Source: Nitzschia sp. pyKryTriq1 (taxonomy: Eukaryota > Bacillariophyta > Bacillariophyceae > Bacillariales > Bacillariaceae). Taken from it: DNA of 64,000 nucleotides. Of the stretch, positions 6,525-52,088 are shown piece by piece. The stretch lies in NCBI GenBank assembly GCA_956465555.1, contig OY101122.1:197001-261000 (forward strand), in the 5' to 3' direction. Position 1 is the first letter of the stretch. The number at the start of each line of letters is the position of its first letter. Made by a program: the position numbers and the translations under genes. Below the pieces are notes generated by a model. It was not told where the DNA came from. It saw only the letters and a list, made by a program, of their open reading frames with translations, and did no database searches.

Positions 6525-7688
6525 TTATCCCTTCCGCCGAAATTCAAACAAAAAGACTCCCTCTTTATTCTCTTGCGTCTTTTCCTCAAACAAAAATCCA
6601 AAGTCGGTGGCAGTTCTTAACACATCTTCCACTTGCACTGGCACTTCTCGTTTGGCAAAGGCCAAAACAAATACTCCACCAGTTCTTTCCGTTAATAGTA
6701 GATCGACTGTTTCCCATAGTGGAACCAAGACCGAAGGTGCATAAATAATATCTGATGCCAATAGGACATTGTAGCATCGTTCTTCTTGGCATGAGGAGCG
6801 AAGAAATCGTTGGACCGTCTCCTTTCCCCATAATAATTGACGACAGGACGTTTGTACAGAAGTTCCTCTTTCTTGGGCTCCGTTGCGTTTCAAGTTTTCT
6901 CTCAAGACGGGCAACGCTTCGGTATCACCATCGGTCAAGCAAATAATGGTAGTAGTAGCAGTAGTAGTAGTAGTAGCAACCGTAGGAGGGTCGGATGTCG
7001 ATACTAAAGGGGAAGCGGTAGCGTCTCCATCCTCGTTTCCAATATGATTGCTGTCGTTTGTTTTGTCCATTGTAGAATGATGATTTTTGGATAATAATAT
7101 TAATAATCGATCCAACAAAATTCCACAAACTCCAAGACCGGCACCCAATTCCAAAATATTTTGTCCCCTCCATTCGGAATAGTGTTGTAAAATGTAATCA
7201 TTGAGTTGATGCGAAGCTTTCCATAACGTCAATCCCGTAGATTGCCATGTTTCGTCCGAGTCGGCCTTGTAACCATCAATGGTAATGGAAATTGTGTTCG
7301 TTTTGTTGTTGCTGCTGCTGCTGCTGCTCCTGCTGCCGCTGCCGCTGCCGCTGCCGCTGCTGGACGAGCCGCCGCCATCCACTGTAAAAGTAAAGGTGAA
7401 TTCTTGAGTCGGATCAGGATCGGCAAACGGATCAAAGCTAGGCCCATCTTCCTCATCCTCATCTTGCTCGTCGCCGCCGTTACTGTTCTGCTTGGTCTTT
7501 TTGATCAGCATCACTCCATTATTAGCATCGTCCTCCCATCGAATACAAGCGTCCGTCCATGCGGTTTCTTCTTCTTCTTCTGTAGTACGTTTATTCATAT
7601 GGTCATCTGCCATGTCGTCGGAATGAAGAGTCAGTCGGTTTGAATGAATGGATAGATTGATAATATCACGTACAGTATAGGAATCCAT
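6525..7688 (-). CDS. METTL21/FAM86-type (Methyltransf_16) methyltransferase
   Basis: A 387-residue protein. The SAM-binding motif I is 'NILELGAGLGVCGILLDRL' at about residues 177-195. A post-motif acidic strand 'LTDGDTEALPVLRENLKRNG' follows, then 'YNVLLASDIIYAP' at about 305-317, the (D/N)xxY-type signature of the seven-beta-strand lysine methyltransferases. Proteins of this family methylate lysines on factors such as eEF2, Hsp70 or VCP; the substrate here cannot be told. The first ~100 residues are acidic and low-complexity, with a Ser/Gly run encoded by GC-rich triplets near 7310-7365. Two more low-complexity inserts split the Rossmann core (a His/Asn/Asp stretch and a poly-Thr run). No intron is needed. 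The later ATG of MADDHMNK is an alternative start. Confidence 0.85.
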   Translation of the reverse strand: MDSYTVRDIINLSIHSNRLTLHSDDMADDHMNKRTTEEEEETAWTDACIRWEDDANNGVMLIKKTKQNSNGGDEQDEDEEDGPSFDPFADPDPTQEFTFTFTVDGGGSSSSGSGSGSGSRSSSSSSNNKTNTISITIDGYKADSDETWQSTGLTLWKASHQLNDYILQHYSEWRGQNILELGAGLGVCGILLDRLLILLSKNHHSTMDKTNDSNHIGNEDGDATASPLVSTSDPPTVATTTTTATTTIICLTDGDTEALPVLRENLKRNGAQERGTSVQTSCRQLLWGKETVQRFLRSSCQEERCYNVLLASDIIYAPSVLVPLWETVDLLLTERTGGVFVLAFAKREVPVQVEDVLRTATDFGFLFEEKTQENKEGVFLFEFRRKG

Positions 7689-9039: not shown

Positions 9040-9326
9040 ATGCCGAACAAGACTATTAGCTCTATACGAGAGAGTGGTACATACAGGTGCAATAATCAAA
9101 AGGTCTCCCGCGCGATGAATTCTTCCACATGCTTTTCAAGACGGCGTCGACCCAGAGGACAAGCAATGAGTCATAATAGCAACAGCAACAGCAACAGCAG
9201 TACTAACAATACGTCATTTGCTTCCATGATGAGGATGATCTCCATCGTCGTCACCCTTTTGACGCTTTTCCTCCTTCCATCGGCATCCGCCTCGATAACA
9301 TCAAAATCAGCATCAACATCATCCAA

Positions 9327-9376
<50 letters not shown>

Positions 9377-12300
9377 GCAATCACAATCACAATCAAAGAA
9401 TGTTAGAGATTGGAGACTTTTATTCCATCAATCAAGTATTAAAGACGACGAAATTCAAGTTGCCGGACCGGAGCGGTACCGAAGACTCGACCACACTCCG
9501 TTTGAGCAATATCGTGTGTCGCAATGTCCATGTGGGAGATGTGCAAGTGGAACACAGTACTATTACTAGTAGTACTAATGCTCTATTGGAAGTGACGATT
9601 CAAGTCATTGATTTGGATTTGATTTGTGAGGCCAACTATGAGTACAATGGATGGTTGATGAATGGAAAAGGGGACGTTCAGGTCACGAGTCAAAACAATG
9701 ATGTGACGGTCCGAGGGTCGATTCTTCGCCAACCCCAAAGCAGCACAGCATCCGCATCCGCAGCATCAATGTTATTATCTCCTCCACCCTCGACCATTAC
9801 CATGGATTCTTGTACTCCTGCTGTGCAAATATCAAATATTGAATTTGATAATGGTGGATTCTTGGGTTGGGTCTTGAATTTAATCGAAGGATTGGCACGA
9901 GGAATCATGGAAACCTTGGTGGAAGACATGCTGTGTCAAGAATTACAACAGGCCTTGGAAAATGCTCAAGGCGTACTGGAACGAATGAATGAACGACTCG
10001 ACGAGTATTCACCAACAACAGACGATAATGTGGACGTGCTGCTGGTGGTAGATCCTCTTCAAGACGAACGAGATCTGCCCAATCGACTCGATGCCTCCGT
10101 ACAAGCTTCCTCTCTGTTGGACTTGTCAAGTCCTCAAACCAAAGTGGGACAATGGGTCCAACAAACCTTGCATCAGGGTATTGACTATTTACGCGCTACG
10201 GTTCCAGATCCATTCCCCATCACTGCCGATTCACCCACCGACCTGCAAGCCAATATTTGGATGCGACAATTTCTGTTGAATGACGATCGGGGTTTGGCAA
10301 TAGTAGGAGGAGGAGCAGGAGCAGGAGCAGCAGGGGGAGACGGTACCGACAACAACAGCAACAACATTCCTCAGCCTACGACACTGTTTTACAACCATGA
10401 TGAACTATTGGAAACGACCATTCAACTCCAACGTGTCCAATTATTGGGTTTGGATACACTCAACGTATTGGATCCTCTCTCTATCATCGGCCAGTATACT
10501 ATTCAAAGCCAAGTGTCGTGGGAGTATTTGGCCTTGGAAGTGGATGCCACTCTTGATATTCGACCCTCCAGTTTGGACAATGCGGTAGTGACGGGTCAGG
10601 GCGAAGGACTGCTCCTGGAAGATCTCAGTGTCGTCATTGGGCTAGGAAGTGTCCAAGCCAGCATGGCCTTACTCGCCGCGATTCATCAAGAGGTTCTCGA
10701 GTCGCTCCAAATCGGATCACTTCTTTCTACCGCCAACCTCTTGCCATGTTTGGTTTCGACTGTCGTCGAACTTGCCTTGTCGAGCTTTTTCATCGAGGCT
10801 GGTGATATCTATACGCCATATCTTTCCGGATTGGATTCGGTAGGATTGGATCGAATTTTGGACGAGGTGCTGGAGATTGTTTTTTTGTTGTACGAAGATG
10901 TGGTACTTCAACGATCGCCGGCCTTTTTCCAACAAGATTTTCGTCAAACCTTGAATGTACAATTCCTTCAACAATACTTGAATACTGCCTCGAGAGATTG
11001 TCCACTGCCAAATGTAGCCGTCCCATCTTTGACCAACGCTCCGGCAGGCTTTGTGGACTTTCGCGATTTGCTACTGAGTCCGTTGGATGCTTCCTCACGA
11101 GGAGGATCGGGTACGGAGCCCTACGGAGATTTGTTTTCTTCCATGATTACACCCAATCTGGATGTACAACTGATGGGATCGATCGATCAATTTAATGAAC
11201 GCTTTGTACGACCCGCTACCAAAGCCCAATCGGGAGTCGAGGGAGCACTCATGTGGCCTGACTGGGTTGGATTGGACTATACTGCAGATTCTACCTCTCT
11301 CTTTGATGCTGCGCTCTTCCATGTATCGAATCTACGAATCCACAATCTCGATACAGTTGCAGAGCCTCTGAATTTGTTGGATGCTCAAGATTGGAACTCT
11401 CTCTTTCAAACTTTGACCTTCCAAAGTAATAATAATGAAGAAGACAAAGCTTTCAACGTCTCGGCCAGCTTTTTGTTCGCCGTGGGAGGCGAAGATTCGC
11501 CTTTGGCCATGACGAATCAGGTCGATTTGACTCTTACGATTCCATCCATCACCCTCTCGGCGGGTATCTTGGCGCACATGAAAGAAGAAGATCTCCTCCA
11601 GTTTCCTCTGGTCGATGCTACCAATCCCTATTGTTGGTTGACAACATTGGCTTCTTATGATGATGGTGTCCTCCTAGCGCCACTTGTCTTGGATACACTC
11701 GCTCTATCCCTCGATACCTTTTCCTTGGAGTCTGAATGCATATCCTGCACGAGTCCAGGAGCATATGTCTTGTCGGAATTGTTGAGGGATGATCTACCTC
11801 GTTTTGGCTTTCAAGCGGCCTTTGCATCTCGGATCATGGACTTGGCGCAAGACATCGCGTGGCATGTAGTGGAAGAGTTCGATCTCGAGAGTCTCATGGC
11901 TGAAGCGATCGTCCAGTGCCCGCATCAAAGCAGTGGCAACGGAGCCACAGGATCTACAGTCGGCTTGAGTCGACAGCAAGAATCCCAGCAAAGCAATAAC
12001 GGCAACCAATTTTCATCCGGGGAAGGCGTACAAGCCATGATTGCGATGGATGCCTTGTCGGAGAATTCTGTCGAGACGGTGTTGGGTCTCGGCATGGTAG
12101 CCATGCAAGCTGCCATTGCAATGGTCGCCCGCAATCACGCACTTCTGGTAAAGGAAGGAGCACTCGAAGCTCCATCCATGTCCAGCAACCGAACACAAGA
12201 AAGTTATTATCAACAAGAATCCACGAGTAATGTTTTGGATTGGACAAATCTTTCTTCTGGAAACGGAGGAGGGTGGGCCGATTTTGCCTTTGAAGAAATT

Positions 12301-15300
12301 CGAAAGTACATCTTGGCGCCGGTCAAGAGTGGACGGATCTTGCAACCAAATGAGACTGTTTCGAATAGTCCTCAAGGGGAATCAAAAACGTCCATCCCTC
12401 GACTTCTCAGCATGTTGCAAGACCATGTTCTCGATGAGAATGGTGTCTACGTGTTCGATGTCGAGCAAAACGCCAATATCATGGCCGAGGCTATGGGAGT
12501 CCAGATTGCAGCATCACAAGTGCGAGTATCGGGCTTGGACACCTTGTCAGGCATTGATTTGATGGTTCCTATCCAGCCACAGGTACTACGAAACCGGTTT
12601 CATCTGGACGACTTGACGGTAGTTATAGACGCCAGTCTCAATATTGGTGACACAAGAAAAGAAGCAATCCAATTTACTTACTCGGCCAAGAACATTTCGG
12701 CCCAGTTGGATCTATTGATTGCCCTTGACTTGGACGCTGTTCAAGCTATTCGAATCGGCTCCCTCTTTAATACGAGCGACATTCTCTCGTGCATGACCTG
12801 GGGCTTGCAAGACGTTCAAATTCATCAGCTCTCGACCTCGATTGCCGAGATTGAGGGCCCGCAACTTTCCGGCTTTCTTTCGTCAAGCTTTCAATCTTCT
12901 GTGGATTCGATCCTCACTGCCATGTCCGGGAGTTATCATGCCGATGTCTTATCCGCGATGCCAGTATTTCTGGATAGTACTTTCCGGGATTTGGTCAATG
13001 CCATGGTGCCGGACTTGATCGACTCGATTCAAAGCAATTGCCCAGCGCCTCCCGCATATCCCGAACTGGGTCTCGTCGACTTTCGAGAGCTTTTGCTCCC
13101 TGCAAATGCATCACGGGCTCTGGGAGCGAATGGTGACTCTTCCTATGGAAACTTGTTTCAAATGCTCTACGGTCTGCTCGAAGAGAATATCCTCCGGACA
13201 GGCGCCACGAATCGTCCGGTCGTCAACGACATCTTTCGACACGTTACGAACGAACAATCAAATGTCAACGGCTCTTTCATTGTGGAAGAAAATGCCTTTG
13301 ATAGTCAAACAAAGTTCAAGATTGCGGGCTTGGAGGCAATCTTTGGATTCCAGATATCCAACGTGACTCTTGAGAATATTGACAGCGTCGGGGATCCGTT
13401 GGATATACTACGACCAATGATGAATGAAGCCCATGTGCTGAAGAACGCCTTGTCGTTTGGTGTAGACTCGAGACCAGTCCGTTTGGCGGCGACGTTTGTT
13501 CTTGCACTAAGCGATGGTGGTAAGACAATGAACAGGAAGAAGGTCTTTCATGACATGGTTTGGACAAAAGACTCACACATGATATTTCTTCTTGCAACAT
13601 TTGCAGTCGAGATGAACATCCGAAACGCGATGCGAGTTGCCTTGACTCTTGAAGACGTTGCGATCATGGCTGAGATTCTGCTCAAGATTTCGGAGCGATC
13701 TTTTGCCGGTTTTCCGATTGGGGACTTGAACAACATCAATTGCTGGTTGGCAACGATTCTCTCTCATCCTTCCGAGGAAGATCCTGCCTTGCGAGGAATC
13801 GGCCTGGAAGAACATTCGTTCTCGATTGGGAACTTCTCATTCGGGATCAGCTGCGAGGATTGTACGAGCCCCGACTTTGACAGGTTGCTGATGTCGCTGT
13901 ACGACTTTGAGAATTCTACTGTCCTTGAAAGCACAATTCGACACCAGACAGACGGGCTCTTCGATGCCGACTTCGTCCCTGTTGTTCTGGATCAGGTAGT
14001 CGAAGGGGCTTCCAAACGTTGCCCTCACCACCCAAACTATGATCCCAACGCGACGCCTGTAGCCTTCCTCAGCTCGCCTGCTGACTCCTTCGACTTTTTC
14101 GAGATTACGTCGAATAACGAAAAATCAGTTTCGTTCAATATCGTAAACACGATTATTGCCATGCTGTTGTGTCTTGTTGGCTTTTTGGCAGCATTGGTTG
14201 TCAGGAGGCGAAATCGGAAATGGGTTGAGTCCCTTTCGAGGGAGGGATCACTCCTCCTTCAGCGCCAACAAGAGAAAGATCGCCAGATGCAAGAAATGTT
14301 GAACGCGTCTACTCAATCCCTTTTTACCAGCCCGAGTATTCCTCGCCGAATCCGATACGGAGTTCCCCTTGCGATTCTTGTCAACATTGTCCTCTACATG
14401 GGAGGGCATCTTTTTGGTACTCTTTCCGTTGTGAACGTTGACGTTGCATTGGCCGGAGAAGAATTCACGATTTATGAGTTCCTGGAATTCAAGTTCATCG
14501 AGTCCACCAGGAACACGTACAACAATGGCGGAGCAGAGATGGCAGTATTGCTTTGGATGTTCACTGGCGTTTGGCCCTACATCAAACTGGTTTTGTCACT
14601 GGTCCTGTGGATTGTCCCACCAACTCGACTGAGTGTATATCGGCGCGGCCAAGCTCTGCTGTGGATCGATGCCTTGGCAAAGCTAAGCGTGATCGACATT
14701 TTCACCCTGTTGTTGGGTTTTGCTATTCTCTTGGTGTTCATTGGAGGCCCCGATGAGTCGCTCAGCTCTTCTGCGGCCACACTCTACGCGTTCAAAGCGA
14801 TCATCGTTCCACGCGCAGGATTCTATTGTCTTATTATAGGCCAGCGAATGTCACGGGTCAGCTCCAAATTCTTGCTGGAATGCCATGATCGTGCGATTGA
14901 TGCAGCAACTAAACAAGGGGGCGATACTAAGTCTCTAGCTTCTACTGCGGAAGTTGCTCCTGGCTCGGCACTATCATCGGATGGCGATGGTTCGTCGTCG
15001 AGCGCTGGAAGTATGTTGCAAAGAATCGATGAAGTCGCCGCTCGAGTAGCCGAAGATGAGGATGGAAAGTCCACCGCCTCCTTCGATGATCGCTTTGACG
15101 ATGTTCTAGAAGAGCCAGATCATGACGAAGAACGCACTCACGGCGACGAGGACGAACCTTCTACCGGATCAGCAAATGAATACCGATGGGGAACCATGGG
15201 AGTTATCTTTGGCGCTATCACGATCTTTATCATCTTTGTCATTGGCTGCATCTTCGCACCGGCCATCTCACTGGACACATCATCTATTGCTGGCCTTGCA

Positions 15301-16338
15301 GTAGAGTCCGGCAAGACCTATGAAGACGTTGTTAACGAATACGGGGTTTTCCTCGTCATCAGCAGCGTACTGCTAAAGGCAAGTTTTGTACTTGATTCCA
15401 AGGCAGATTACGTTGGGCTTGGATTCCTACTTGTGGGAGCCCTTGTCTCGGCTGCCTGCGTTTTCTTCTTCCAGGCCTATCAATTTATCAAGAGGAAAAT
15501 GAAGGAGCGCCGTATCGGTCCTGTGCTCCCTTCATACGGGCACCGCGGGTGTGGCCTACCACTCTACTTGCGTCTACACAAATGGAAGCATATGGAGATT
15601 TATCTCATCTCGGTAACCATTGGAGTATGGCAGCTTGGATCGGCCTGTTCCTACGCCATTTATCAGTACTGTGACATTCTCCATCAAGCCTATTCGCTCA
15701 TGGCGTTTATTGGTTTGACAGAAGAATCCACCGCCCAGTGCTCTCGAATCCAAGCAACTGACCCAGGCAATTTAATCATCATCGGGTTATCCTTCTTGAT
15801 GTTGCTGCTTGCCTTTTTCTTCCAGGCAGCTGCTCAGTACAAGAAGAACATTGCCGAATCACTTCGTTTTGTGGATGACGACGACGTACCACGACTTTCC
15901 CTTGCCTGGAGTCGGGACAAGAGCAAAAACAGTCGATATTCCCATCTGACAGCTTCTCTCTCGATGGACCAACTATCAAGTGAGTTCCATGACCCGCCGA
16001 TCCCGTCCACGCCCTGTACCAGTGCTTCGACGACTCCACCGAGCACGCCAAGAGCTGAAAGCATTGACATGGACTCGAATTCGAATTCGAGCCCTGCGCC
16101 GGCAACCCCAGGCTCTCCCGTCTACTCGACGCCACCACGCTCCAGCTCCTTTCCATCCCAGAGAACAAGAAGTAACGTTCGATTTCATTCCGAGGACGAC
16201 GACCAAGAATGTCTTCCACCGAGCCCACCGAGAGTTCATTCCAGGGAAATAATGTCTTCGTCGGTTGCCGTGAATGAACAAGCTGTCCGCCTGGGATACC
16301 GGCCAAGCCACGAATACCATCACGAAATATTATATTAA
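9040..16338 (+). CDS. Giant membrane protein: BPI/TULIP-like lumenal region fused to PqiA/LetA-like TM modules
   Basis: A single exon encoding 2432 residues from the ATG at 9040; ATGs at 9166 or 9226 would instead place the hydrophobic segment (about 63-85) as a classical signal peptide. After a Ser/Asn run, residues ~125-315 resemble the N-terminal barrel of BPI/LBP proteins: an amphipathic beta-rich part, then C258 and C299 about 41 residues apart with 'GFLGWVLNLIEGLARGIMET' between, matching the BPI disulfide and helix. Next come two copies of a ~700-residue unit (about 470-925 and 1165-1630) sharing GLDTL, IGSL...C, VDFR(D/E)LLL, NCWL and a Cys-containing CTSP motif. A TM helix at ~1697-1720 precedes two hydrophobic modules (~1773-1930 and ~2050-2270). 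They resemble PqiA/LetA cores, for example 'WIDALAKLSVIDIFTLLLGF' and 'HMEIYLISVTIGVWQLGS'. The tail is Ser/Pro-rich. Lipid transfer is inferred. Confidence 0.8.
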
Positions 16339-25566: not shown

Positions 25567-26436
25567 GATGATGATGATGATGAAATGATGATGCTGATGC
25601 TGATGAATGACTAGACTACTGGTAGTACCAGGTAGATACTCAATCTGCTAGTCTACTTCAAGAATAATGCCAACAACGACCAAAACCAACTCAACACTCA
25701 GCATGCACTACTTATTTTTCAAGTAGCCGCCGCGACCGACGATATTACTGTATGATGATGACGAAGAATGCGAGGTGTTGTTTTTAGTTTTTTGGTGGAT
25801 GATGATGATGATGCTGATCATGTCGCGGCGGGTCGGTCGTGCTCGCTCGTCGTGCAGTGCGTGCGTATGCGTTGTTTCGTCTCGTTGTTTTGTTCCCGCC
25901 ACCTGGAAGAAAAAGAGACCCGGAAGCTAAGCGCAGTATGCATACGGTGAATACATACGCCAGCGAGCGCACACGTCATCATCATTCCTTCCTTCCTGGC
26001 TGACGATTTGACTTGTTCGACCATAACAAAATTCGCGCCCAGAAAATGGTCCGGTGGCAACTGTAGAAATGTAAAGGAACTCTTCGTATGTAGGATCTGT
26101 ACGAAGAATGACGTAGGATCATCGCACATCGATCCATGTATGATATGCCATGCAGGCAGGCAGGGATCTCTCATCGTCCCTCCCTCTCCGCTCTCCTCTC
26201 CTCTGTCTCGACAATGACAGATGATGATAGCATCAGGTACTGGTACCGGTACGAAAGAGCAATATATTTCGTATTTCCTCCTCTCGCCGCAAGCAACATA
26301 CAACACCACAACACCACACATTGACTGCGTCGTCGTCGTCGTACGAGTATCGACACTACACTTGACTACAGTACACTGCACTGCACGACACTGCACCGCA
26401 CTACGAGCACAGTACAGTACAGTACAATACAGTGCA
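25567..26436. other. Intergenic between divergent DUF1995 and PSF1 genes
   Basis: A shared 870-bp promoter region with ATG/CAT triplet runs near both start codons and CAGTA/CTGCA repeats just before the PSF1 ATG. No gene is supported. Confidence 0.5.
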
Positions 26437-27258
26437 ATGGCATCCACCACCACCTCCACCGCGGGCCGCGATCTGTTGCTCGAACTCAAACGTCATCAAT
26501 CGCAGCAACAGCAACAACGCAGCAGCAGTAGTAGTAGTACGTGTACCCTTCCTCCTCCCTACAATCTCAAACTCGTCCGACAGTGCTTGGAAGATTTGCA
26601 AATGTCCTTTCAACGTTTGAGTGAAGAAGTACAAGCCACGAATGAAAGTGGTAAGACTGGCAATGTTACTGGCAATACTGGCAATGACAACAACAATGAC
26701 GGTAACAACAACGGTAACAACAAGCCCAGCATGGCTTCCCGTCCAAGCATGCTGTGGCATCATGCTTGCATTCAACGTCACAAACGTTGCTTGTTGACCT
26801 ATCACAAACATCGACTGGCCGGTTTGGAACGGGCCGTCCAACAACAACCACCACAAAGTGTTGGTGGTAGTAGTAGTATGTTACTACTGCAACACTTGTC
26901 GACAAATCCTGCCGAATTGGAATTTTGTCGTCACTATCAAGAGTTGCGTCAACAATACGCGGCGGCCGTCTTGCCGGAAAGTATGATGATGAATGCTAGT
27001 AGTACTATGAATGGTGGTGATGATTTGCCACCCCCCGCCTCGTCCATGGCCAATTCGTTGCAGGTACGATGCCTGCAAAGCTTGGGACAGGTCGTATTGG
27101 ACAGTGGACGATCGGTCACATTTACCAAGGGAAGTATCTTGTACCTGCCCCGCTCGGATATTTTGGAATTCTTGCAGCAAGGTGGTGATAATAATGCTAA
27201 TGGAAGTACTACTACTCCTACTCTGCAAGTTTTGGAAGGAGAAGAAGTGGATTTTTAA
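26437..27258 (+). CDS. PSF1: GINS complex subunit Psf1
   Basis: A 273-residue protein from the ATG at 26437. Psf1, with Sld5, Psf2 and Psf3, forms GINS, which joins MCM2-7 and Cdc45 as the replicative helicase in the nucleus. The landmarks are 'LVRQCLEDLQMSFQRL' (first helix), 'HHACIQRHKRCLLTYHKHRL' (the conserved R-N/K-x-R-C helix), 'EFCRHYQELRQQY' (acidic-aromatic helix) and the C-terminal B domain 'QVRCLQSLGQVVLDSGRSVT' with 'ILYLPRSDILEFLQQG'. The protein is longer than the usual ~200 residues because of Asn/Gly and Gln/Ser inserts. There is no intron. A longer in-frame start at 26221 is rejected because the added residues are low-complexity and run through promoter repeats. Confidence 0.92.
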   Translation: MASTTTSTAGRDLLLELKRHQSQQQQQRSSSSSSTCTLPPPYNLKLVRQCLEDLQMSFQRLSEEVQATNESGKTGNVTGNTGNDNNNDGNNNGNNKPSMASRPSMLWHHACIQRHKRCLLTYHKHRLAGLERAVQQQPPQSVGGSSSMLLLQHLSTNPAELEFCRHYQELRQQYAAAVLPESMMMNASSTMNGGDDLPPPASSMANSLQVRCLQSLGQVVLDSGRSVTFTKGSILYLPRSDILEFLQQGGDNNANGSTTTPTLQVLEGEEVDF

Positions 27259-41778: not shown

Positions 41779-44700
41779 CTAGCTGTGGCCTCTAAAGTCA
41801 GCAGGTGAACCAGCATGACTAGCGAAAACACCCGGAGGAAATGATGGGCGCGTGTGTAAACGATTTGCCCCCTGGGCTGTAGAAGTCAAGCCAGTATTCT
41901 GACCTGGTGCTTGCCCGTGGAAAAGATATTGCTGTCTGCTACTAGCAGCTTGTTGCATTTGGGCTCTCGCCAAGGCACCCAGTTGATTTTGGGTAGTAGC
42001 CATTTGTTGCATCTGAGCTGCCAATGGGTTTTGGGCAGCCAGGTGAATGTCCGTAGCCGTTTGGCTCTGCGAAGCTATTCGACCCTGCTCGACGGATGAA
42101 ACGTGCACAAGCGGTCCGTAGAGAGGAAGACGCAGTTCGGGATTTCTGGAACCGGCTGCATTCGCTGAAGGCAGTCCGGAATTTCTCAAATCGCCTACAT
42201 TCACTAAGCCCGCATTCGCTAAAAGCAGTCCGGGATTTTTCAAACCGCCGGCATTCGCTAAAGGCAGCGTTGCTTGATTGCGATTGAAGTCTTGCTCAAC
42301 ACCAAACGGATTCTCTACCCCATACATCTGCTGCCAATGGCCAGTCGCTAGGGATGGCTGAGGTGCCGCTGCACCCGGAAAACCAAGAGTGGAACGAAGA
42401 TAATCCAGGGGCTTCTGAGAGATAGTGGCCGGATCCTTCGTTGTCGGTGCTTTGTTCTTAGGAGTCTTCGTCTTCACAAACACTACCGAATCATCATCAG
42501 AAGCCTCGTAAATAGAAGACCTCTTGGATGGGGCCTCTTTCGCGTCCCGTCGTCGTCCATTGTTGCAAGTAGTAGCAGATTTCATCGCTAACCCCGATCC
42601 CAACTTTACGATGGGCCGGCCAGTCACTTTCGGAGTCGACTGTCCTTTGTCCGATTTGGGCATGTCGGAAAGTCTCTCCTCCGCATCCTCGTAGATACTT
42701 GATGAAGAACCTTCATCACTTGCACTATGCTGGAACACATTTGGTAAGTACGCGTCAACGAAAACATTCGAAGCATACCTGGCCTCGAACTGATCCAGGG
42801 GCTTCTGAGAGGTAGTGGCCGGATCCTTCGTTGTCGGTGCTTTGTTCTTCGAAGGAGTCTTCGTCTTTACAAACACTACCGAGTCATCATCAGAAGCCTC
42901 ATAAATAGAAGACCTCTTGGATGGCACCTTGTTGGTGTCCGGTCGTCGTCGTCGTGCATTGTTGCAACTAGCAGACGCTAACCTCGACCCCACCTCGTTG
43001 GCGTCCGGTCGTCGTCGTCGTGAATTGTTGCAACTAGCAGACGCCGACGCTAACCTCGACCCCAGCTCTACAATGGGCCGGCTAACCGACCCCAACTCTA
43101 CAATGGGCCGGCCAGTCACTTTCGGAGTCGACTGTCCTTTGTCCGATTTGGGTATGTCGGAGAGTTCCTCCTCCGCATCCTCGTAGATACTTGATGAAGA
43201 ACCTTCATCACTTGCACTGTGCTGGAACACATTTGGTAAGTACGCGTCAACGAAAACATTCGAAGCATATCTGTCCTCGAACTCATCCGGAGCATTCATG
43301 TCGTCATCGTCATCGTTGTTGTAGACGTTCAAAGTGTCATTTACACCATCATTGACCGGCATGTCCCGAGCCTTCTCCACCGCTTGAAACAGTGCATTCA
43401 TCGGGTGTTTTCCCCCCAGATTTTCTCGTCCTTTCGAAATGGCAAATGTCGTGGGTGTAGCTGCAGGCTTGGTCAGGTCCAAAAACACTGTCCCTGGTGG
43501 CGTCGCATAGTGCCGTTTGGCCTTGATGGAGACACCAGCTTTTGCGACCGGAGACTTCGTTTCTGCATCAAGCTTCCTTTTGCTGCTAGTAGCAACAGCC
43601 TTCTTTTTTGATGCCGCGGGTGGATCCTTTGTCGTCTTCTTCAATACAGGTGTTCTCCGGAGAATCTTGGGGTTGTTGGTTCTGCTCTTGGTTTGCTTTT
43701 TTGCATTTTGTCCTTTGGCCTTGTTGGGGGACCCAGCGTTTGCGACCGGAGACTTCTTTTCTGCATCAAGCTTTCTTTTGTTGCTAGTGGCAACAGCCTT
43801 CTTTTTCGGCGCCGTGGATGGATCTGTTGTCGTCTTCTTCAATACAGGTTTGGTTGGCTTTTTGGCAGGGAAAGAAACGCGCACGGCTTCGGCCGTTGCC
43901 ACGATGTCCTGCTTTTTTTCTGCTATTGTTTCTTGGGCGGATTCTGCGAGAAGAGCTGGCTCTTGCGAGCTTCCTTGAACAAGCGAGGAAGGCCTATCAT
44001 GAATTACTCCACAACGGGCTACTCCAGAATCTTCGGATGCCTTGTCATCTATCGCCTCACCGTTCCGCCATATTTTAGACGAAGCATTGCTAGAACTGTT
44101 TGCTGCCTTGACCTGGGATGGCTGCATCGCAGTCTCTTCCATGGTGCTGTGGCTCGTTTCTTGCTGAGCATCATGTTCCTTCTTTCCAGGGGACGTTTTT
44201 TTCTTTTTCTTCTTCGGTACCCAGCAAGCGGCGGCAGAGTCCCAGTCCATTTGTCCTGGATAGGAAGAAGGGAGAGCGACAAATTCCTCTCCATTACTAA
44301 CCTGAGTCTTGGATCCTGCAGGTTGATCCCCCGCGACAGGGCCCTTTTTCGGTCTTTGCTTCGGAACCCAGCACCGTGCTAGGGGATCCCAGTCCCTGTC
44401 ACCGTATGAATACGTGAGCGCAATAAGCTCTTGATCTCCCCCCGAACGGAGCGATCGCCGCGTGGAACGGGCTGAAACTGTCGGTTCGACCTTTATTTCT
44501 GGCATGGATGTCACAGTGGTCGGGACTGGGGCAGAGTGCCCTCGTTGAGGCTTTCCATTTTTCACAATTTTCTTGGATTTGGACCTAGCAGCGGGAGGCT
44601 TCCATGCATCGAGAATTTCCGAAACAATAGCGTTCACTTCATCCATGTCCGTAATGATGTGCGTTGGTTCGCCTGTGTCTGCGCTATAAACAGTAAGCCC

Positions 44701-47295
44701 CCTGGTAGCGTCCTTGGCAGACTGAGACAGCGAAGGAGTCGTCATTAGATGATAGACTAAATCATTCCATGAGCCTTGGGGTACTTCGCAAGCGAGACTT
44801 TCAAACTGCCCACATATCCAGCGCTCTGATGCTTCGGCTGTATAAGGAAAGAATTGCTGTGGAAGTCTTCGGCGCTTGCGGCATTTGCGGCACTCAATAA
44901 ATGGTGCGAGCTGAACTATTTCGATGGGGGTGAGAAGATCAGGCGGATCCCACATAGTCGATTCTTCTGGCTCCGGCGTGCCTTCGTCGTCGTTTCGACG
45001 ACTCCGGATTTCGGGTGTTTTCCCTTCCAGCACAAGCAGCGCACTTGCTAATGTAGGCTCCATTCTCATCTTGACTTGCTGTGCGCGCCGAGAGACTTGA
45101 CGAGTCGGAGCGGATCCCGATGTTTCTACAAAACCCTTTGATCGAACATGTTTCGCCGACGTAACCCGCCGCTTCACTGATTTCTTGTTTTTCCTCACTA
45201 CCTTTTCCTCTTCGAATATTATTTCACCGTCTGAACCTTCGCCGTCCGCCCGAGCAAGGCGTGGAAGGGAATCTAGATTTGTCGCGCTGCGCTTGGGTCG
45301 TCGTCGTGCTACTTCCAGTTGTGTCGTCCACCTCCTTGACGGATTTGACGGTCCCCGACTGTTCGGTCGCGACGCGCGCCTTGGTTTGGAAAAATCGTCA
45401 TCACTATCGACCTCACTATCGACCTCACTATTGTCATCGTCATCGTGATCATCAAAGTCTTCGCCTGGTTCGGATTCCGACTCAGGAGGATCGCTTTCAC
45501 TAGAAGGCTCTGAATATTTAGACGCCTTCGCCCCTTGCTTCTTGGCTTGCCCCCGAGCGATGCTGCTATTGAACGTTGTTCTTGGCGTCTGGTCTTTTTG
45601 TGTTGCCGAATTCCTGTCCGCCCTTTCCTTATTAGCATCATCATTTCCAGATTGTTCCATCTCGGAAACAACTACTATTTTTTTGTTGATCTCCGTGACG
45701 AAACCTGTCCCCGTAGTGTGCATGTGCATGCTAGAAGCTGTTGTTGTTGGCGCCTTATTGTTGTGTGGTCTTTGGACGCTCGCTCTAGCAGCACCGTAGT
45801 TTTTGCTTTTTTTATTAGTACAAGACTCTTCATCATCATCATCATCATCATCGTGCTCGTCGATGCAAATTTCTTTTTTCGGTCGCCCCGTATGTCGCTT
45901 TGGCGTTGCAGCATCGTCATCCTCATCGCTACTACTACTGGTACTGGTACTGGTACTGGTACTAGTAGTTGCAGCAGTACTACGATCCCGTTTCTTCTTC
46001 TTCCTCTTATTCTTTGTCGGCAGCGAGATCCTCTTTACGGTAGGACATTCTTCATTGCGTGGGCACCAAGTATTCATGGTACAAACCCAGCGTCGCGGCA
46101 AATCATGGCGGTCCACTGGAAACGGTAATGGATAGGACGCTTGACATTGCCTGCAAAATACGCGGTGTACAAGGAGAGGGTCGGAATAATAATAATAAGA
46201 ACACTCATCATCATCTTCATCATCATCATCATCATCATTGTTGTGTTGTTGTTGTTTTTGTTCGTCAGGAGACGAACGGATTGCGTCTGGTTTCAGGTCA
46301 TCATCATTGTCGATATCCTGGTCATGACTACTATCAGCAGTCATTGCCGCATCACCATCATCCTCGATCTCCTGATGACGAGCAAGCCGACCTCGGGAAG
46401 TGGTGGTAGGAGTAGCAGTATCCAGTTCATATTCATCAGTCGTAGAGGCTTGCCGTCCATGTTTTGGACTACTAGTAGGACTTGTATAAATATGAAGTAG
46501 TGGCAAGGATGAGGACGGCGGCGCCTCCAAAGAGGCATTATTGCCTTGTTGTTTCGACGCTCCGCTCCTGAGAATTATTTGTGCATCCTTCGAGGATGAT
46601 TTTTTTTTGTCCCCATCCTCATAATCATCAGCGGCGGAGGGAGGAGTTGAGGTAATAATAGGAGCTGTGTCCATGTCTGGAGCAGGGACTGCTTTCGTTC
46701 GTTCCTCCGGAGTAGGAGTAGCACTACTAGGAGCAGTAGCCAAAGAGGTGCCGGCGTGGCTGCTCAACATAATATGAGTATTATTACTGTCATCCTCTTT
46801 TGGATGCCTGCTGGAGGTTCTGCTTTCTGATGATTCAGCGGCACCATCAACATCATCATCGTCGGGAGTACTACTTGTAGTGCCCGTACGTGTAGTAGTC
46901 CTCAGCGGCGGTACCAGTGCTGGTATCATTAGTTCTGTCGTCGACGCCTCTGATTTGGGAGACGAAGCGGCGGAGGAGGACGTCGTCGATGCCGATGCCG
47001 ATGCCAGCTCTGGGGACAGACTTGTGCGCCTTGATTGCTGCAAAGACACCGCCCGGCCACTCATCAAGCCGCCCAGTACACCACCGAACGACGAAGAAGC
47101 AGCAGCAGCAGTGCTTGTGGTGGTGCTGGATGATGCAGAAATTCTACGCTCAACAACGGCCTGCTGACGAGACAGTTCCGCATCAGAGAAGGAGGAGGAG
47201 TTGTCAGTACCAACAGTCGTAGGGATTGGAGGAGTCCTGTCGGCGCCGTGGGCTTCTTTCTCCCCGTCCTCCGCCGCAACAGCAGCGGAAAGCAT
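41779..47295 (-). CDS. Large nuclear-type protein with two CW zinc fingers
   Basis: A 1838-residue single-exon protein from MLSAAVAAEDGEKEAHGA (ATG at 47293-47295; 21 upstream in-frame codons are less likely). Two CW-type zinc fingers are visible: 'FCRQCQASYPLPF' with WVC and two later Cys at about 379-420, and 'IECRKCRKRRRLPQQF' with RWIC and a last Cys at about 797-835. CW fingers usually read methylated histone H3 K4, so a chromatin reader is likely. The rest is disordered, acidic and basic by turns, with nuclear-type KKKRKK clusters. Two 'DWDxxAxCWVPK' peptides, a duplicated 'PVLKKTTxDP...KRKLDAE' block and a ~130-residue duplication near 1335-1620 show repeated internal copying. 'DDDSVVFVKTKT', present twice, resembles a SUMO-interaction motif. 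The C-terminus is Gln/Ala-rich. Confidence 0.85.
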   Translation of the reverse strand: MLSAAVAAEDGEKEAHGADRTPPIPTTVGTDNSSSFSDAELSRQQAVVERRISASSSTTTSTAAAASSSFGGVLGGLMSGRAVSLQQSRRTSLSPELASASASTTSSSAASSPKSEASTTELMIPALVPPLRTTTRTGTTSSTPDDDDVDGAAESSESRTSSRHPKEDDSNNTHIMLSSHAGTSLATAPSSATPTPEERTKAVPAPDMDTAPIITSTPPSAADDYEDGDKKKSSSKDAQIILRSGASKQQGNNASLEAPPSSSLPLLHIYTSPTSSPKHGRQASTTDEYELDTATPTTTSRGRLARHQEIEDDGDAAMTADSSHDQDIDNDDDLKPDAIRSSPDEQKQQQHNNDDDDDDEDDDECSYYYYSDPLLVHRVFCRQCQASYPLPFPVDRHDLPRRWVCTMNTWCPRNEECPTVKRISLPTKNKRKKKKRDRSTAATTSTSTSTSTSSSSDEDDDAATPKRHTGRPKKEICIDEHDDDDDDDEESCTNKKSKNYGAARASVQRPHNNKAPTTTASSMHMHTTGTGFVTEINKKIVVVSEMEQSGNDDANKERADRNSATQKDQTPRTTFNSSIARGQAKKQGAKASKYSEPSSESDPPESESEPGEDFDDHDDDDNSEVDSEVDSDDDFSKPRRASRPNSRGPSNPSRRWTTQLEVARRRPKRSATNLDSLPRLARADGEGSDGEIIFEEEKVVRKNKKSVKRRVTSAKHVRSKGFVETSGSAPTRQVSRRAQQVKMRMEPTLASALLVLEGKTPEIRSRRNDDEGTPEPEESTMWDPPDLLTPIEIVQLAPFIECRKCRKRRRLPQQFFPYTAEASERWICGQFESLACEVPQGSWNDLVYHLMTTPSLSQSAKDATRGLTVYSADTGEPTHIITDMDEVNAIVSEILDAWKPPAARSKSKKIVKNGKPQRGHSAPVPTTVTSMPEIKVEPTVSARSTRRSLRSGGDQELIALTYSYGDRDWDPLARCWVPKQRPKKGPVAGDQPAGSKTQVSNGEEFVALPSSYPGQMDWDSAAACWVPKKKKKKTSPGKKEHDAQQETSHSTMEETAMQPSQVKAANSSSNASSKIWRNGEAIDDKASEDSGVARCGVIHDRPSSLVQGSSQEPALLAESAQETIAEKKQDIVATAEAVRVSFPAKKPTKPVLKKTTTDPSTAPKKKAVATSNKRKLDAEKKSPVANAGSPNKAKGQNAKKQTKSRTNNPKILRRTPVLKKTTKDPPAASKKKAVATSSKRKLDAETKSPVAKAGVSIKAKRHYATPPGTVFLDLTKPAATPTTFAISKGRENLGGKHPMNALFQAVEKARDMPVNDGVNDTLNVYNNDDDDDMNAPDEFEDRYASNVFVDAYLPNVFQHSASDEGSSSSIYEDAEEELSDIPKSDKGQSTPKVTGRPIVELGSVSRPIVELGSRLASASASCNNSRRRRPDANEVGSRLASASCNNARRRRPDTNKVPSKRSSIYEASDDDSVVFVKTKTPSKNKAPTTKDPATTSQKPLDQFEARYASNVFVDAYLPNVFQHSASDEGSSSSIYEDAEERLSDMPKSDKGQSTPKVTGRPIVKLGSGLAMKSATTCNNGRRRDAKEAPSKRSSIYEASDDDSVVFVKTKTPKNKAPTTKDPATISQKPLDYLRSTLGFPGAAAPQPSLATGHWQQMYGVENPFGVEQDFNRNQATLPLANAGGLKNPGLLLANAGLVNVGDLRNSGLPSANAAGSRNPELRLPLYGPLVHVSSVEQGRIASQSQTATDIHLAAQNPLAAQMQQMATTQNQLGALARAQMQQAASSRQQYLFHGQAPGQNTGLTSTAQGANRLHTRPSFPPGVFASHAGSPADFRGHS
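42405..43290 (-). repeat. Long direct repeats within the CW-finger gene
   Basis: The segment from 42405 to about 42795 recurs from about 42795 to 43290 with few changes; the second copy is longer by about 100 bp because two inner pieces (GTCGTCGTCGTG-ATTGTTGCAACTAGC and CTCTACAATGGGCCGG) are doubled. The encoded duplicates keep the reading frame. Confidence 0.9.
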
Positions 47296-48629
47296 CGTTG
47301 TTCTTTTTCTTTCTCCCTTCGCTCCAATAAAATAAAATAAAATAAAATAAGCTGTCAATCAATCTTGATCGAATTGATTGTATTTTTTTTTTAATTGTGT
47401 CGATGCACAATCGGCGGTTGTTGTGTTGTACGAATGCTGATGTTGAGCTTGAATGCAATGCACGTACGGTACTGCAGGTTGTGCGGCGGCCGAAGGAAAG
47501 GTCGGCGGCGGTGCGGTGATGGAATATTGAATATTGTATACGAAATTCGGGGACTGTTGTTTGCACTCGTGCCAGTACCGTACAGACAGTACTTGCACCC
47601 TACGTACGGTTTGTGAAGGCCGCCGGGAAGGCGAGGCCGTGTTCGCTGCGAGCGAGCGTCGCGATCGATGTCAATAATTCTCATTCCGAAAAAATAAATA
47701 CGAATACAAATAATAATAAACCAATCGAAATGTCGCTGCCTTCCGCTTGAGTACTGTAAACGGGTAAAAAAAACCTTACGTTACGTTCTTGTCAGCGAAC
47801 GAACGGCGGGAGGGAGCTCGTGTTTCGCACGCACGTACACTGGAGTTGTGGCCAGCGGATTGGTAGCGGATTACCCCGGGTCATAGGCATATATATAGCC
47901 ATCTGGCACAATGGCAAGAATCCGCCGTGAAACCGCAACTTCCCGCTAAGAAACCCATATGATGCCGATTCCGTAGCTAACAATCCGCTATTCGAGTCAC
48001 AATGACCCTGTTGACATTTCCATAATATCAATCAAAATCGCTCACTCGCGCGCATTCGCGTGCACTAACCGCCACCCTCCCGCCACCATCCCTTCCCGAA
48101 CCCGCCGAGGAACAGCGAACAACCCGCCAGCTCCGCCGCCACGAAACTGCTAAGAATCCTCCACGCATTCGCTACTCCCACCTATACATACCTACCGGTA
48201 CGCACTTGCCTGTACAGACACACGTCTACCGGTTCTGTCTGACGTAGCTTCGTTAGAAAAGTCCGTGCTTAGACCGCCGCTTCGCTCAAAGGTGCGCAGG
48301 ACGCATTAGAGTTTTTCTTGCATGGGGGTTCGGGTATGGTGGCGAGAAAAGAAGCGTGCGTTTTGGTAATGACCATTTCGCGTCCGCGGGTTGAGCAAAG
48401 ATACTGCTCGACGGTCCATCCATCTCTAATGGCTGGATGTCAAGATCCAAGGTGACCCTGTCAAATGTCCTTATGACTACTTGGACTCAGTACGACGGGC
48501 AGACGTCTATCCGTACACGTTACGCAAGAGTGGTTTTCATCGTTACAACTTTGTCGCCTAAAGTGCCGCACCGGCGAGGCACTGCTGCCTATGATTATTG
48601 GAATTGGAATTGGTTCTTCGGTAATAATA
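47296..48629. other. Intergenic, upstream of the CW-finger gene
   Basis: An (AAAAT)n run and a T-tract stand at about 47328-47395 close to the start codon. No gene is supported in the remaining 1.2 kb. Confidence 0.5.
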
Positions 48630-48933: not shown

Positions 48934-51262
48934 TTAATCTTCTAGAAACTCCGTCATGTCAGAAGCACTGACATAGATTGTCTGGAAGAAATGAAAGAAC
49001 TCTTTCTTTGTCACCCAGAAGATGCCGTCATCTGCCACTACCGGCTTCAAAAGCTTTTTGATCTGGGGGTAACGATTCCATCCAGGACCGTCATCGTCGA
49101 ACTCCCCATTCTCGATTTCTCCGCCCCCCCAAGGATTGCGTACCTTGAGCAAATCAATTCCAGTGCCGGCTACGTTTGAATGACTTTCGATCACCGAGTA
49201 GGCATGATTATCCACCAATCCGCCTGTGGAATGTTTGTCAGAAGTGCCTTTGGTACCAGCACCGACAATATAGTTTTGCTTATCCCATGCTACCAAGCGC
49301 AAAAACAATTCATCTTGCGTCAATTCCAGATTCATATCGCCTCCTCCACCCACCTTGGGCCAAGCGGCCTGCCAAGTGCCCGTCTCACCATCATGGGGAG
49401 AATTGGCATGTCTGGCCCAGCGCTTTTCGTAGGGATTGTATCTGGCGTAGCACCCATATTTTGCCGATTTTTCGTTGAGGCGTATAGTGTATTGTTCTTT
49501 GCATCCCGTCATGAGAGCCCAGGCGTGTGTGCACTGGCCTCCGACGATTTTGTCCCAACCACCACTGGTGTGCGTATTCGTATAGAGCAAAAGTTGGAAA
49601 ATGTGAGAAGAGCTCGCGATGATAGAGCCATGTTGTATTTCGCCAACAGTAGGCTACGTACCAATGAACGGCAAGTGCCTTTTCGAGATACGGCACCCAT
49701 AATTCGCCATCTTCCGATGGCTTGGACGCCAGTAGCCCTTTTCCACCCGGCGCACATGCCAATCGCTCGTCTATTTCAATATCGACTTCTTTCCACGTTG
49801 TCAGATCCCATAAGGTAACGGTATACATGTTGGGACCGTCGAGGGGCCGTTGTTCCAAGTTCTTGGTCTTGCGAAAGAGTTTCTTGATCGCTCCATCGAA
49901 TTCGGCCAAGCTGGAAATACCCGAAAGTAGCCAACAGTCACCGACTAGGCCTTGGGAAATGTCCGAAGGGTCGACGTCGCCAATGATTTTTAAGAGTGGC
50001 GTATCGCCAACTCCCATTCCACGGCCAGGTAGGATCGGTTTGTTGGTACTACTAGAATCATCATCATGAAGTTTGCGTTTTTGAAACGTCATGGCGTCTG
50101 TATACTTGTCGCGATTCGCCTTGGGCAAGACATTGTTAGGAAAGGGTGGAACCCGTTCATAGGAGTGTAGCAATATACTCATCCATCCGGATGGGCTCAC
50201 TCCTTGAGGACGATAGTTCTCGGTACCCTCACGGTGGATGAGGGTGTATTTGTGATTGGTGGCGGGCCAATTTTCCTTGACCATGCTCGTTTGATACAAC
50301 AGTGCGGTATACTTTGCAGGATTGGCTTTGAATCGCTTCATACCTTCTTGAATGGATTTACCCTTGATGACTTCTTCCTTTCCTTTGGTATCGTACGAAG
50401 CGGATCCTTGGAAATTCATTTCCTGGAGCCGCCATTTCGAATTGTCAATATTCCGATAAGCTTCGGGAACTTCTTCCTTAAGAGCTGGCGACGCCGAACC
50501 ACCACCACCACCACCAGCGGGCTTTTTGGTTTTGGATTTTGGGCTTGGGCTTCCACTGCCACTGCCACTGCCTCCTCCACCACCACCACCACCACGGCCA
50601 GAAACATGACTATTTTTGGCTGGATTTCTCGATTTCACAGGACTTTTGTTGTTGCTGCCAGCAGCGACTCTTGGTTTGGGCTGGCTACGGCGCGGACTGT
50701 TGGAGGGAGAGCTGTTGCCGCCAGGCCGTCGCTGGTTCGCGTTGGCACTAGGAGTACTAGGACTACCAGATGCTCCTGCTGCTGCTGCTCCTGCTGCTGC
50801 TCCTGGAATAATCTTCTTGTCGACATCGGCCGACTTGTGATCGATTTCATCGTAGTGTTCATCAATTTTGCCTCGTAGTTCCGCAATATCCCTCGTGGCA
50901 TCTCTCAAACACTTTTTCAACAACTGTTCCTGCGACGCCTTATTATTATTATTATTATTATTTTGATCACCGCCGCCGTCCTTCATGACTAGTGTCAAAT
51001 AATCCATCCCAAATTGTTTCTTGCGATTATTCACTTTAGTTTCCAATATGGCTATATGGGATTGGGCCTTGACTTTGAAACAACACAAGCCTGTCGCTTG
51101 ACCACAATTATTTGCCATTCGTTTCATCTTGTCACCAAACGACTCCTCCTCCTCGTTGTTGTTGTTGTTGTTTTCGGCGGTGGTGGATGCAGCATTCTGG
51201 CTGTTTCTTTGATTGCCCCGCCCGGCGGCGCGAGGAGGATTCGTTGTGCCTGATGATGACAT
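48934..51262 (-). CDS. Calpain-type cysteine protease, two exons
   Basis: On the minus strand exon 1 is 51262-49662, the intron is 49661-49565 (97 bp, donor GTACGT, acceptor CACCAG) and exon 2 is 49564-48934. The split codon restores 'AVHCGGWDK', as in calpains. The product is 743 residues from MSSSGTTN; 22 upstream in-frame codons are judged to be 5' UTR. The catalytic triad is complete: C443 in GDCWLLS, H654 in VDNHAYSV and N677 in VRNPWGGGE. 'GGQCTHAWALMTG' lies between. The first ~330 residues are Asn/Gly/Ser/Pro-rich and disordered except for a possible helical part near 45-130. No C2-like or EF-hand domain follows; the protein ends soon after the catalytic core. A calcium-dependent or regulatory proteolysis role is inferred. 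The protein is probably cytosolic. Confidence 0.92.
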
Positions 51263-52088
51263 GATGATAATGTTCGTAATAATAATATTATGTACTACTG
51301 TTGTTACTTTCCAGAAAGCTTTATGCAAACAAAACGCGATGGGAATGATGCTGATCGGAATGAATCATCATAATATCACATACATTTATCATGATAGCAC
51401 ATCATCATCATCAGCACATCATCATCGCTCGGAAGCTCGTCGCTCGCGCGACGGGTAGAAAAGATTTTATTATTAGCGAGACGACGACTCACTCACGACT
51501 CCTCATCGATCGCGCGCGCAGCATCCTCGCTCGAAAAGGAATCTTTTGAATGACGAATCATCATCATCATCATCATCAGAGGTAGGCAGGGGTGTCTTGC
51601 GGTCATCTTTCTCGATGACCGCATGATGTTTTGTCAATGTCTTTTCTACGTGATGTCTACATGCTTTTCATACTATAATATGTATGTGGTACAGTACTGG
51701 GTGTAGTATTGTGATGCTTTGTACTACCGGTTGTACCGACCGTAAGTACTGTATCATACCGGAACTGTATGCGAATGTTGGAAATACGACTGATTGGACT
51801 TCTCCTGAATAAAAAAGAACAAAACACAAAAAGAACAACAACTTAGTACAGTACGTAATAGACTATGTACGTATCTGGAGGACGACGTGTCAGAGAATAA
51901 TAATAATGTTGTAGTGTAACAAAGAAACAACATCCTACAGTATCTTCTGTATCTAATATCCTGTCTCACCAACAAGCAATTGAATTTATTGCAAAAGCGT
52001 GGAGGAAGGTCACCAAAAGTCAGAACATATACTACTAATAGTAGTAGTAGCACAACAAGCAAGCAAGCAAGCAAGCAAGCAGTGAACC
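51263..52088. other. Intergenic between divergent calpain and BTB genes
   Basis: A shared upstream region of 826 bp with CAT triplet runs and an (AAGC)n run at about 52056-52080, just before the BTB start codon. No gene. Confidence 0.5.

Follow-up and report, generated by a model that had tools for sequence, protein, structure and literature searches.

On the forward strand of contig OY101122.1 of the diatom Nitzschia sp. pyKryTriq1 (assembly GCA_956465555.1), positions 197,001 to 261,000, hereafter the window (64,000 nucleotides, numbered from its first letter), contain a long reading frame whose product very probably joins a BPI-type lipid-binding domain to a PqiA/LetA-like membrane core. 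The frame is open from 9001, with its first ATG at 9040, its last codon ending at 16335 and its stop at 16338; by plain arithmetic, an open frame of 2432 codons is not expected by chance. BLAST aligns the product (P0001, the window protein) with P0002, a paralog of 1699 amino acids on another contig, at 29% identity over residues 124-962 and 1122-2270 (867 columns, E=1e-90, and 1203 columns, E=4e-139), and the frame therefore encodes a real, conserved protein. The 9040-16335 frame is a conserved, nuclear-encoded gene for a diatom membrane protein, although translation may in fact begin further on, for instance at the ATG of 9226 (M63), directly before the signal segment.

From its sequence, the product is predicted to have a segment resembling a signal peptide, then some 1,600 lumenal residues, and to end in a polytopic region read as nine transmembrane (TM) segments (Table 1). 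The hydrophobic segment at residues 66-84 lines up with hydrophobic stretches at the N-termini of P0002 and of a second paralog, P0003; hydropathy alone points to secretory entry. The first 1,690 residues contain 20 N-glycosylation sequons, some of them inside the Asn/Ser-rich linker. Diatom plastid-targeting sequences carry an ASAFAP-type motif, with Phe after the signal cleavage site, and plastid targeting was set aside because no Phe follows the predicted cleavage. Within the lumenal part, the 29 codons of 13520-13606 have nothing equivalent in the first copy of the unit that contains them or in P0002, and they are likely an intron, predicted to keep the frame.

Table 1. Features of the gene and its product; positions are those of the window.
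Feature	Position	Strand	Basis or remark
Whole coding frame	9040..16338	+	2432 codons and stop, counted from first ATG
Signal-peptide-like hydrophobic segment, residues 66-84, ending PSASA-S	9235..9291	+	hydropathy peak 2.07
Ser/Asn-rich linker	9324..9380	+	encoded by CAACAG tandem repeat
Module A, predicted BPI/LBP/CETP N-terminal-type TULIP domain	9394..10074	+	PF01273 match, residues 137-308
Cys258	9811-9813	+	first of BPI-spaced pair
Cys299	9934-9936	+	second of BPI-spaced pair
Lumenal unit B-C, first copy (B ~10387-11139, C ~11140-11928)	10387..11928	+	BLAST/alignment
Linker between B-C copies, residues 964-1121	11929..12402	+	outside both BLAST stretches to P0002
Lumenal unit B'-C', second copy, containing the probable intron	12460..13998	+	similarity to first copy
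Probable in-frame intron, 87 nt (GTAAG...TTTGCAG)	13520..13606	+	29 codons without counterpart
TM0, residues 1701-1719, then VRRRNRKW	14140..14196	+	hydropathy; cytosolic side by positive-inside rule
PqiA/LetA module 1, ~4 predicted TM, motif WPYxK...R...KxSxxD	14353..14889	+	PF04403; match to LetA 332-394
PF04403 match in module 1, residues 1824-1892	14509-14715	+	Pfam E=0.0017
Acidic low-complexity loop between modules, presumed cytosolic	14890..15186	+	sequence; poorly aligned
PqiA/LetA module 2, ~4 predicted TM	15187..15849	+	match to LetA 140-199
Ser/Pro-rich tail, presumed disordered and cytosolic	15862..16335	+	sequence

The BPI-type character of the N-terminal module, A, is supported by Pfam, by the PDB and by a conserved cysteine pair. 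The Pfam profile PF01273 (LBP_BPI_CETP; curated cut-off 28.8 bits) matches the whole window protein at residues 139-308 (E=0.0034), isolated module A over profile positions 17-167 of 168 (E=2.1e-5) and P0003 over profile part 110-165 (E=5.2e-5), each time below the cut-off. When a module A profile built from the three fused proteins (the window protein, P0002 and P0003) was compared with 177,635 PDB sequences, BPI came out best (1bp1 and 1ewf, E=1.1e-4 and 1.2e-4) and LBP third (4m4d, 0.062), followed by an unrelated viral glycoprotein (0.088). Each of the three fused proteins retains the cysteine pair, at a spacing of 41 in the window protein and 40 in both P0002 and P0003; the pair is aligned to the BPI cysteines, whose spacing in the BPI row of the PDB alignment is 40 when counted by eye. 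Residues 137-308 are accordingly predicted to form a TULIP domain of the BPI/LBP/CETP N-terminal type. The C-terminal TULIP family PF02886 found no match at E<=1 in this genome or in any control genome, nor at E<=10 in the B-C slices.

Past residue 1690, hydropathy rises to 11 peaks, some of them close neighbours, which are read here as TM0 followed by two groups of four predicted TM segments. A membrane-region profile of the three fused proteins retrieves LetA/YebS (9n8w) from the PDB at 6.4e-4 in two stretches, with the next best match at 0.99. PF04403 matches the window protein at 0.0017, below its cut-off, and P0002 and P0003 at 6.7e-14 and 7.7e-12, both above it and each in two stretches, the best stretch of P0003 being module 2 (residues 1354-1425). 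The core thus appears duplicated in LetA and Pfam matches alike, and hhalign gives modules 1 and 2 a score of 26.3, reached by 0/60 column shuffles, at a probability of only 8.9%. Module 1 has eight columns (W, P, K, W, R, K, S, D) that do not vary across 6/6 PqiA loci of the genome. For the C-terminal modules, no match to a different transporter family was convincing. By the positive-inside rule, the arginine-rich stretch after TM0 would leave the lumenal part on the non-cytosolic side; together, the signal segment, TM0 and this positive stretch would put the TULIP part where the MCE partners sit in bacteria.

On these points the original prediction held up: it had described a BPI-type layout with two cysteines 41 residues apart and polytopic C-terminal modules resembling PqiA/LetA. 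Neither outcome named there as a refutation occurred, as a TULIP (BPI) hit was obtained for residues ~125-315 and the C-terminal modules matched PqiA/LetA. It had not described the duplicated B-C unit, the additional TM segment before the PqiA core or the likely 87-nt intron, and the lumenal part proves much larger than one TULIP domain.

The B-C array, lying between module A and TM0, forms the bulk of this lumenal part. The second copy, B'-C', is 25% identical to the first over 485 columns (E=2e-28), defining a unit of about 510 residues that occurs twice in the window protein and once in P0002. A comparison of B with C by hhalign scored 26.0, a value that 0/60 column shuffles attained, over 35 columns only and with a probability of 5%; B and C may represent remote halves that arose by a single duplication. 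No convincing Pfam family or PDB chain was found for the B-C units, the combined B-C profile giving 0 matches in the PDB at E<=10, and no relatives were detected outside this genome. The B-only profile drew 17 PDB matches at E 0.27-0.46, all chains of viral non-structural protein 8 (a few named replicase polyprotein), which were taken as chance, and the two matches of the C-only profile were both unrelated.

The genome search, covering 40.65 Mb in 20 contigs, yielded matches to P0002 at six loci, all sharing the PqiA core motif. The fusion occupies three of them, namely the window locus, P0002 (L008) and P0003 (L009), so that module A is carried by both paralogs, whereas the other three (P0004 at L011, L022 and L010/L023) show a PqiA core to which the frames read add no lumenal part, those of L022 and L010/L023 containing introns or breaks. 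The N-terminus of these PqiA-only proteins is polar and largely acidic, with no signal peptide discernible by eye. Adjoining the C9 PqiA locus is an open frame of Gly-Lys-Ser/Asp repeats (L010 1-1251, minus strand; GKSGKDGKSGK...), Lys/Ser-rich and repetitive in appearance. PF01273 has two listed matches in this genome at E<=1, each inside a fused gene (2/2). No relatives of the family were found in the scanned viral contigs and prokaryote genome contigs. Searched against the same 177,635 PDB sequences at E<=10, a profile of the three fused proteins returned four matches: BPI twice, YebS/LetA and LBP. The window protein and P0003 each match both halves of the fusion, while P0002 matches PqiA and aligns with module A.

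Such a fusion is not new as a kind, and the original claim that no example had been described does not stand. Wong and Levine (2017; PMC5507252) describe a few CETP/BPI proteins of protists and amoebae that end in a PqiA domain, for which they propose a lipid permease, citing a 2017 Cell paper for the idea; their functional suggestion resembles the one made here and lies close to the mechanism of the original prediction. The likeness extends to an extracellular or lumenal BPI-type TULIP domain followed by polytopic PqiA in one chain, and to a TULIP domain handling the same lipid as the proposed permease. The window protein has the corresponding N-terminal CETP/BPI domain and C-terminal PqiA, with its secretory entry indicated by hydropathy only. 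Compared with the proteins in that account, it comes from a diatom with three fused genes, runs to 2432 codons, has a TULIP-N-like module as its only recognisable TULIP module and carries a duplicated B-C unit of ~510 residues between TULIP and PqiA; because of this duplication, it is regarded as an enlarged variant of the CETP/BPI-PqiA fusion. In the literature found on PqiA with TULIP, BPI or eukaryotes, Wong and Levine alone describe the fusion, and the passages covered of PMC6791001 make no mention of PqiA. Within the literature searched, three elements are new: that diatoms have such a family, here with three members, that a lumenal unit is duplicated, and that an MCE partner is apparently missing.

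Comparison with bacterial LetA/YebS and PqiA (9n8w; PF04403) reveals the same duplicated polytopic core, both modules matching LetA stretches; the fused proteins differ in their additional TM0 and in the great size of their lumenal N-terminus. With BPI, LBP and CETP, the window protein shares a predicted N-terminal TULIP region whose cysteine pair, 40-41 apart, surrounds an amphipathic helix, but it is membrane-bound and far larger, with no C-terminal TULIP recognised. PqiA/LetA cores are known in bacteria as partners of MCE tunnels. The MCE domain PF02470 went undetected in this genome at E<=0.001 (a six-frame search, which may miss spliced genes); among control genomes it matched 4/14, all prokaryotes. 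The idea that a TULIP carrier replaces the MCE part in a self-contained shuttle, put forward in the original prediction, fits this anatomy and the missing MCE match in six frames. According to PMC10897342, LetA is the sole protein with which PqiA displays homology in sequence; were PqiA a transporter, it would operate passively, be driven by an ATPase not yet identified or draw on the proton motive force.

The window protein is probably a member of the CETP/BPI-PqiA kind that acts as a lipid carrier and permease in a single chain. The assignment of its domains is held with high confidence, and a hand-off of lipid between the BPI-type carrier and the PqiA-type permease is favoured with somewhat more than even confidence. 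In such a mechanism, the signal peptide would send module A and the two B-C units into the lumen of the endoplasmic reticulum or outside the cell, and TM0 would return the chain to the cytosolic side, to be followed by the duplicated PqiA/LetA core of about eight TM segments. This core would move or expose lipid at the outer leaflet, where the lumenal BPI-type domain would bind the same lipid and ferry it through the lumen or the extracellular space, or bring it in. The TULIP carrier would thereby stand in for the MCE tunnel with which bacterial PqiA and LetA work.

Several results weigh against this reading. Both Pfam scores of the window protein, for BPI and for PqiA, lie below the curated cut-offs; its module 2 alone gives no PqiA match, and it is absent from the matches of a genome-wide PF04403 search at E<=0.001. 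PF01273 finds nothing in P0002 at E<=10, although the N-terminus of that protein aligns with window module A. Phmmer with the window protein alone produced three weak PDB matches, neither BPI nor LetA among them; the PDB signal thus depends on the profile of three proteins. In bacterial PqiA/LetA proteins each module has zinc-ribbon CxxC pairs beside it, and no CxxC follows TM0 in the window protein, P0002 or P0003, which is why the core is called PqiA/LetA-like rather than canonical PqiA. The B-C units match no recognised lipid-binding fold in Pfam or the PDB, and module A has no detectable relation to B or C in profile comparisons (the A-B score was reached by 3/60 shuffles and the A-C score by 12/60). 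Finally, the six-frame search for PF02470 ignores introns.

A tentative extension, considered rather doubtful, is that B and C, too, are tubular lipid-binding domains, diverged beyond recognition, in which case the protein would present a lumenal tube of five modules (A-B-C-B'-C') attached to a permease of PqiA type. If true, this would be a single-chain, bridge-like lipid conduit with a length set by tandem duplication, and a eukaryotic counterpart of PqiAB/LetAB with TULIPs instead of MCE rings.

Among the alternatives, the PqiA core may serve mainly as an anchor or receptor-like platform, with the BPI-type part scavenging or sensing external lipids, for example from bacteria, and no dedicated transporter being involved. 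External lipid is what BPI and LBP bind, the PqiA part is described by Wong and Levine as a plasma-membrane anchor (PMC5507252), and the 20 sequons would suit such a role; moreover, since the frames read at three PqiA loci lack a lumenal part, the core can function alone. The eight invariant core columns, which include K, R and D in 6/6 loci, are nevertheless more than a mere anchor would need, and this alternative is judged unlikely. A still less probable explanation makes the lumenal part a structural spacer or adhesin, its B-C array and Ser/Asn-rich linkers reaching the cell wall or another membrane, with module A keeping only the BPI fold. It draws on the B-C copies, which have no lipid-binding relative in Pfam or the PDB, and on an array length that varies from one B-C in P0002 to two in the window protein, and it is at odds with the BPI spacing of the module A cysteines and the presence of the PqiA core, each in 3/3 fused proteins. 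That the BPI and PqiA resemblances arose by chance in a protein of unrelated families, as the sub-threshold scores of the window protein and the single-sequence phmmer result might suggest, is highly improbable and is rejected because both families recur in the paralogs and top the PDB profile searches.

Besides this gene, the window contains 19 open frames of 250 amino acids or more; nine were scanned, six had a Pfam match at E<=0.01, and none of these six matched a lipid-transport family. The neighbours include frames matching a lysine methyltransferase (6528-7688, minus strand), the GINS subunit PSF1 (26221-27255, plus) and a calpain-type protease (49394-51328, minus), as well as a 1859-amino-acid protein with a CW zinc finger (41782-47358, minus). 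A RAP-domain protein (56118-58394, minus; E=1.1e-14) also has a weak Peptidase_M85 match lying exactly at the curated cut-off (E=4e-5), with no stretch passing alone, which is probably compositional. A frame of 556 amino acids (58885-60552, plus) shows a weak bacteriorhodopsin-like match below the cut-off (E=0.0087). Across the genome, eight silicon-transporter loci (PF03842) were recorded, seven at E<1e-261 and one at 2.4e-134, while one control bacterium matched below the cut-off. This family is characteristic of diatoms and closely allied groups, and its loci identify the host as a diatom. Five of the eight (L026-L030) share one contig (G000:C1:79892-317295), four of them within ~41 kb and on both strands, forming a local gene cluster.

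Because diatoms are genetically tractable, the combination of a BPI-type carrier with a PqiA core found here makes it possible to ask whether this core moves lipids without MCE. The diatom fusion could also reveal what the carrier hands over and, through proteins with one or two B-C units, whether the length of the array matters.

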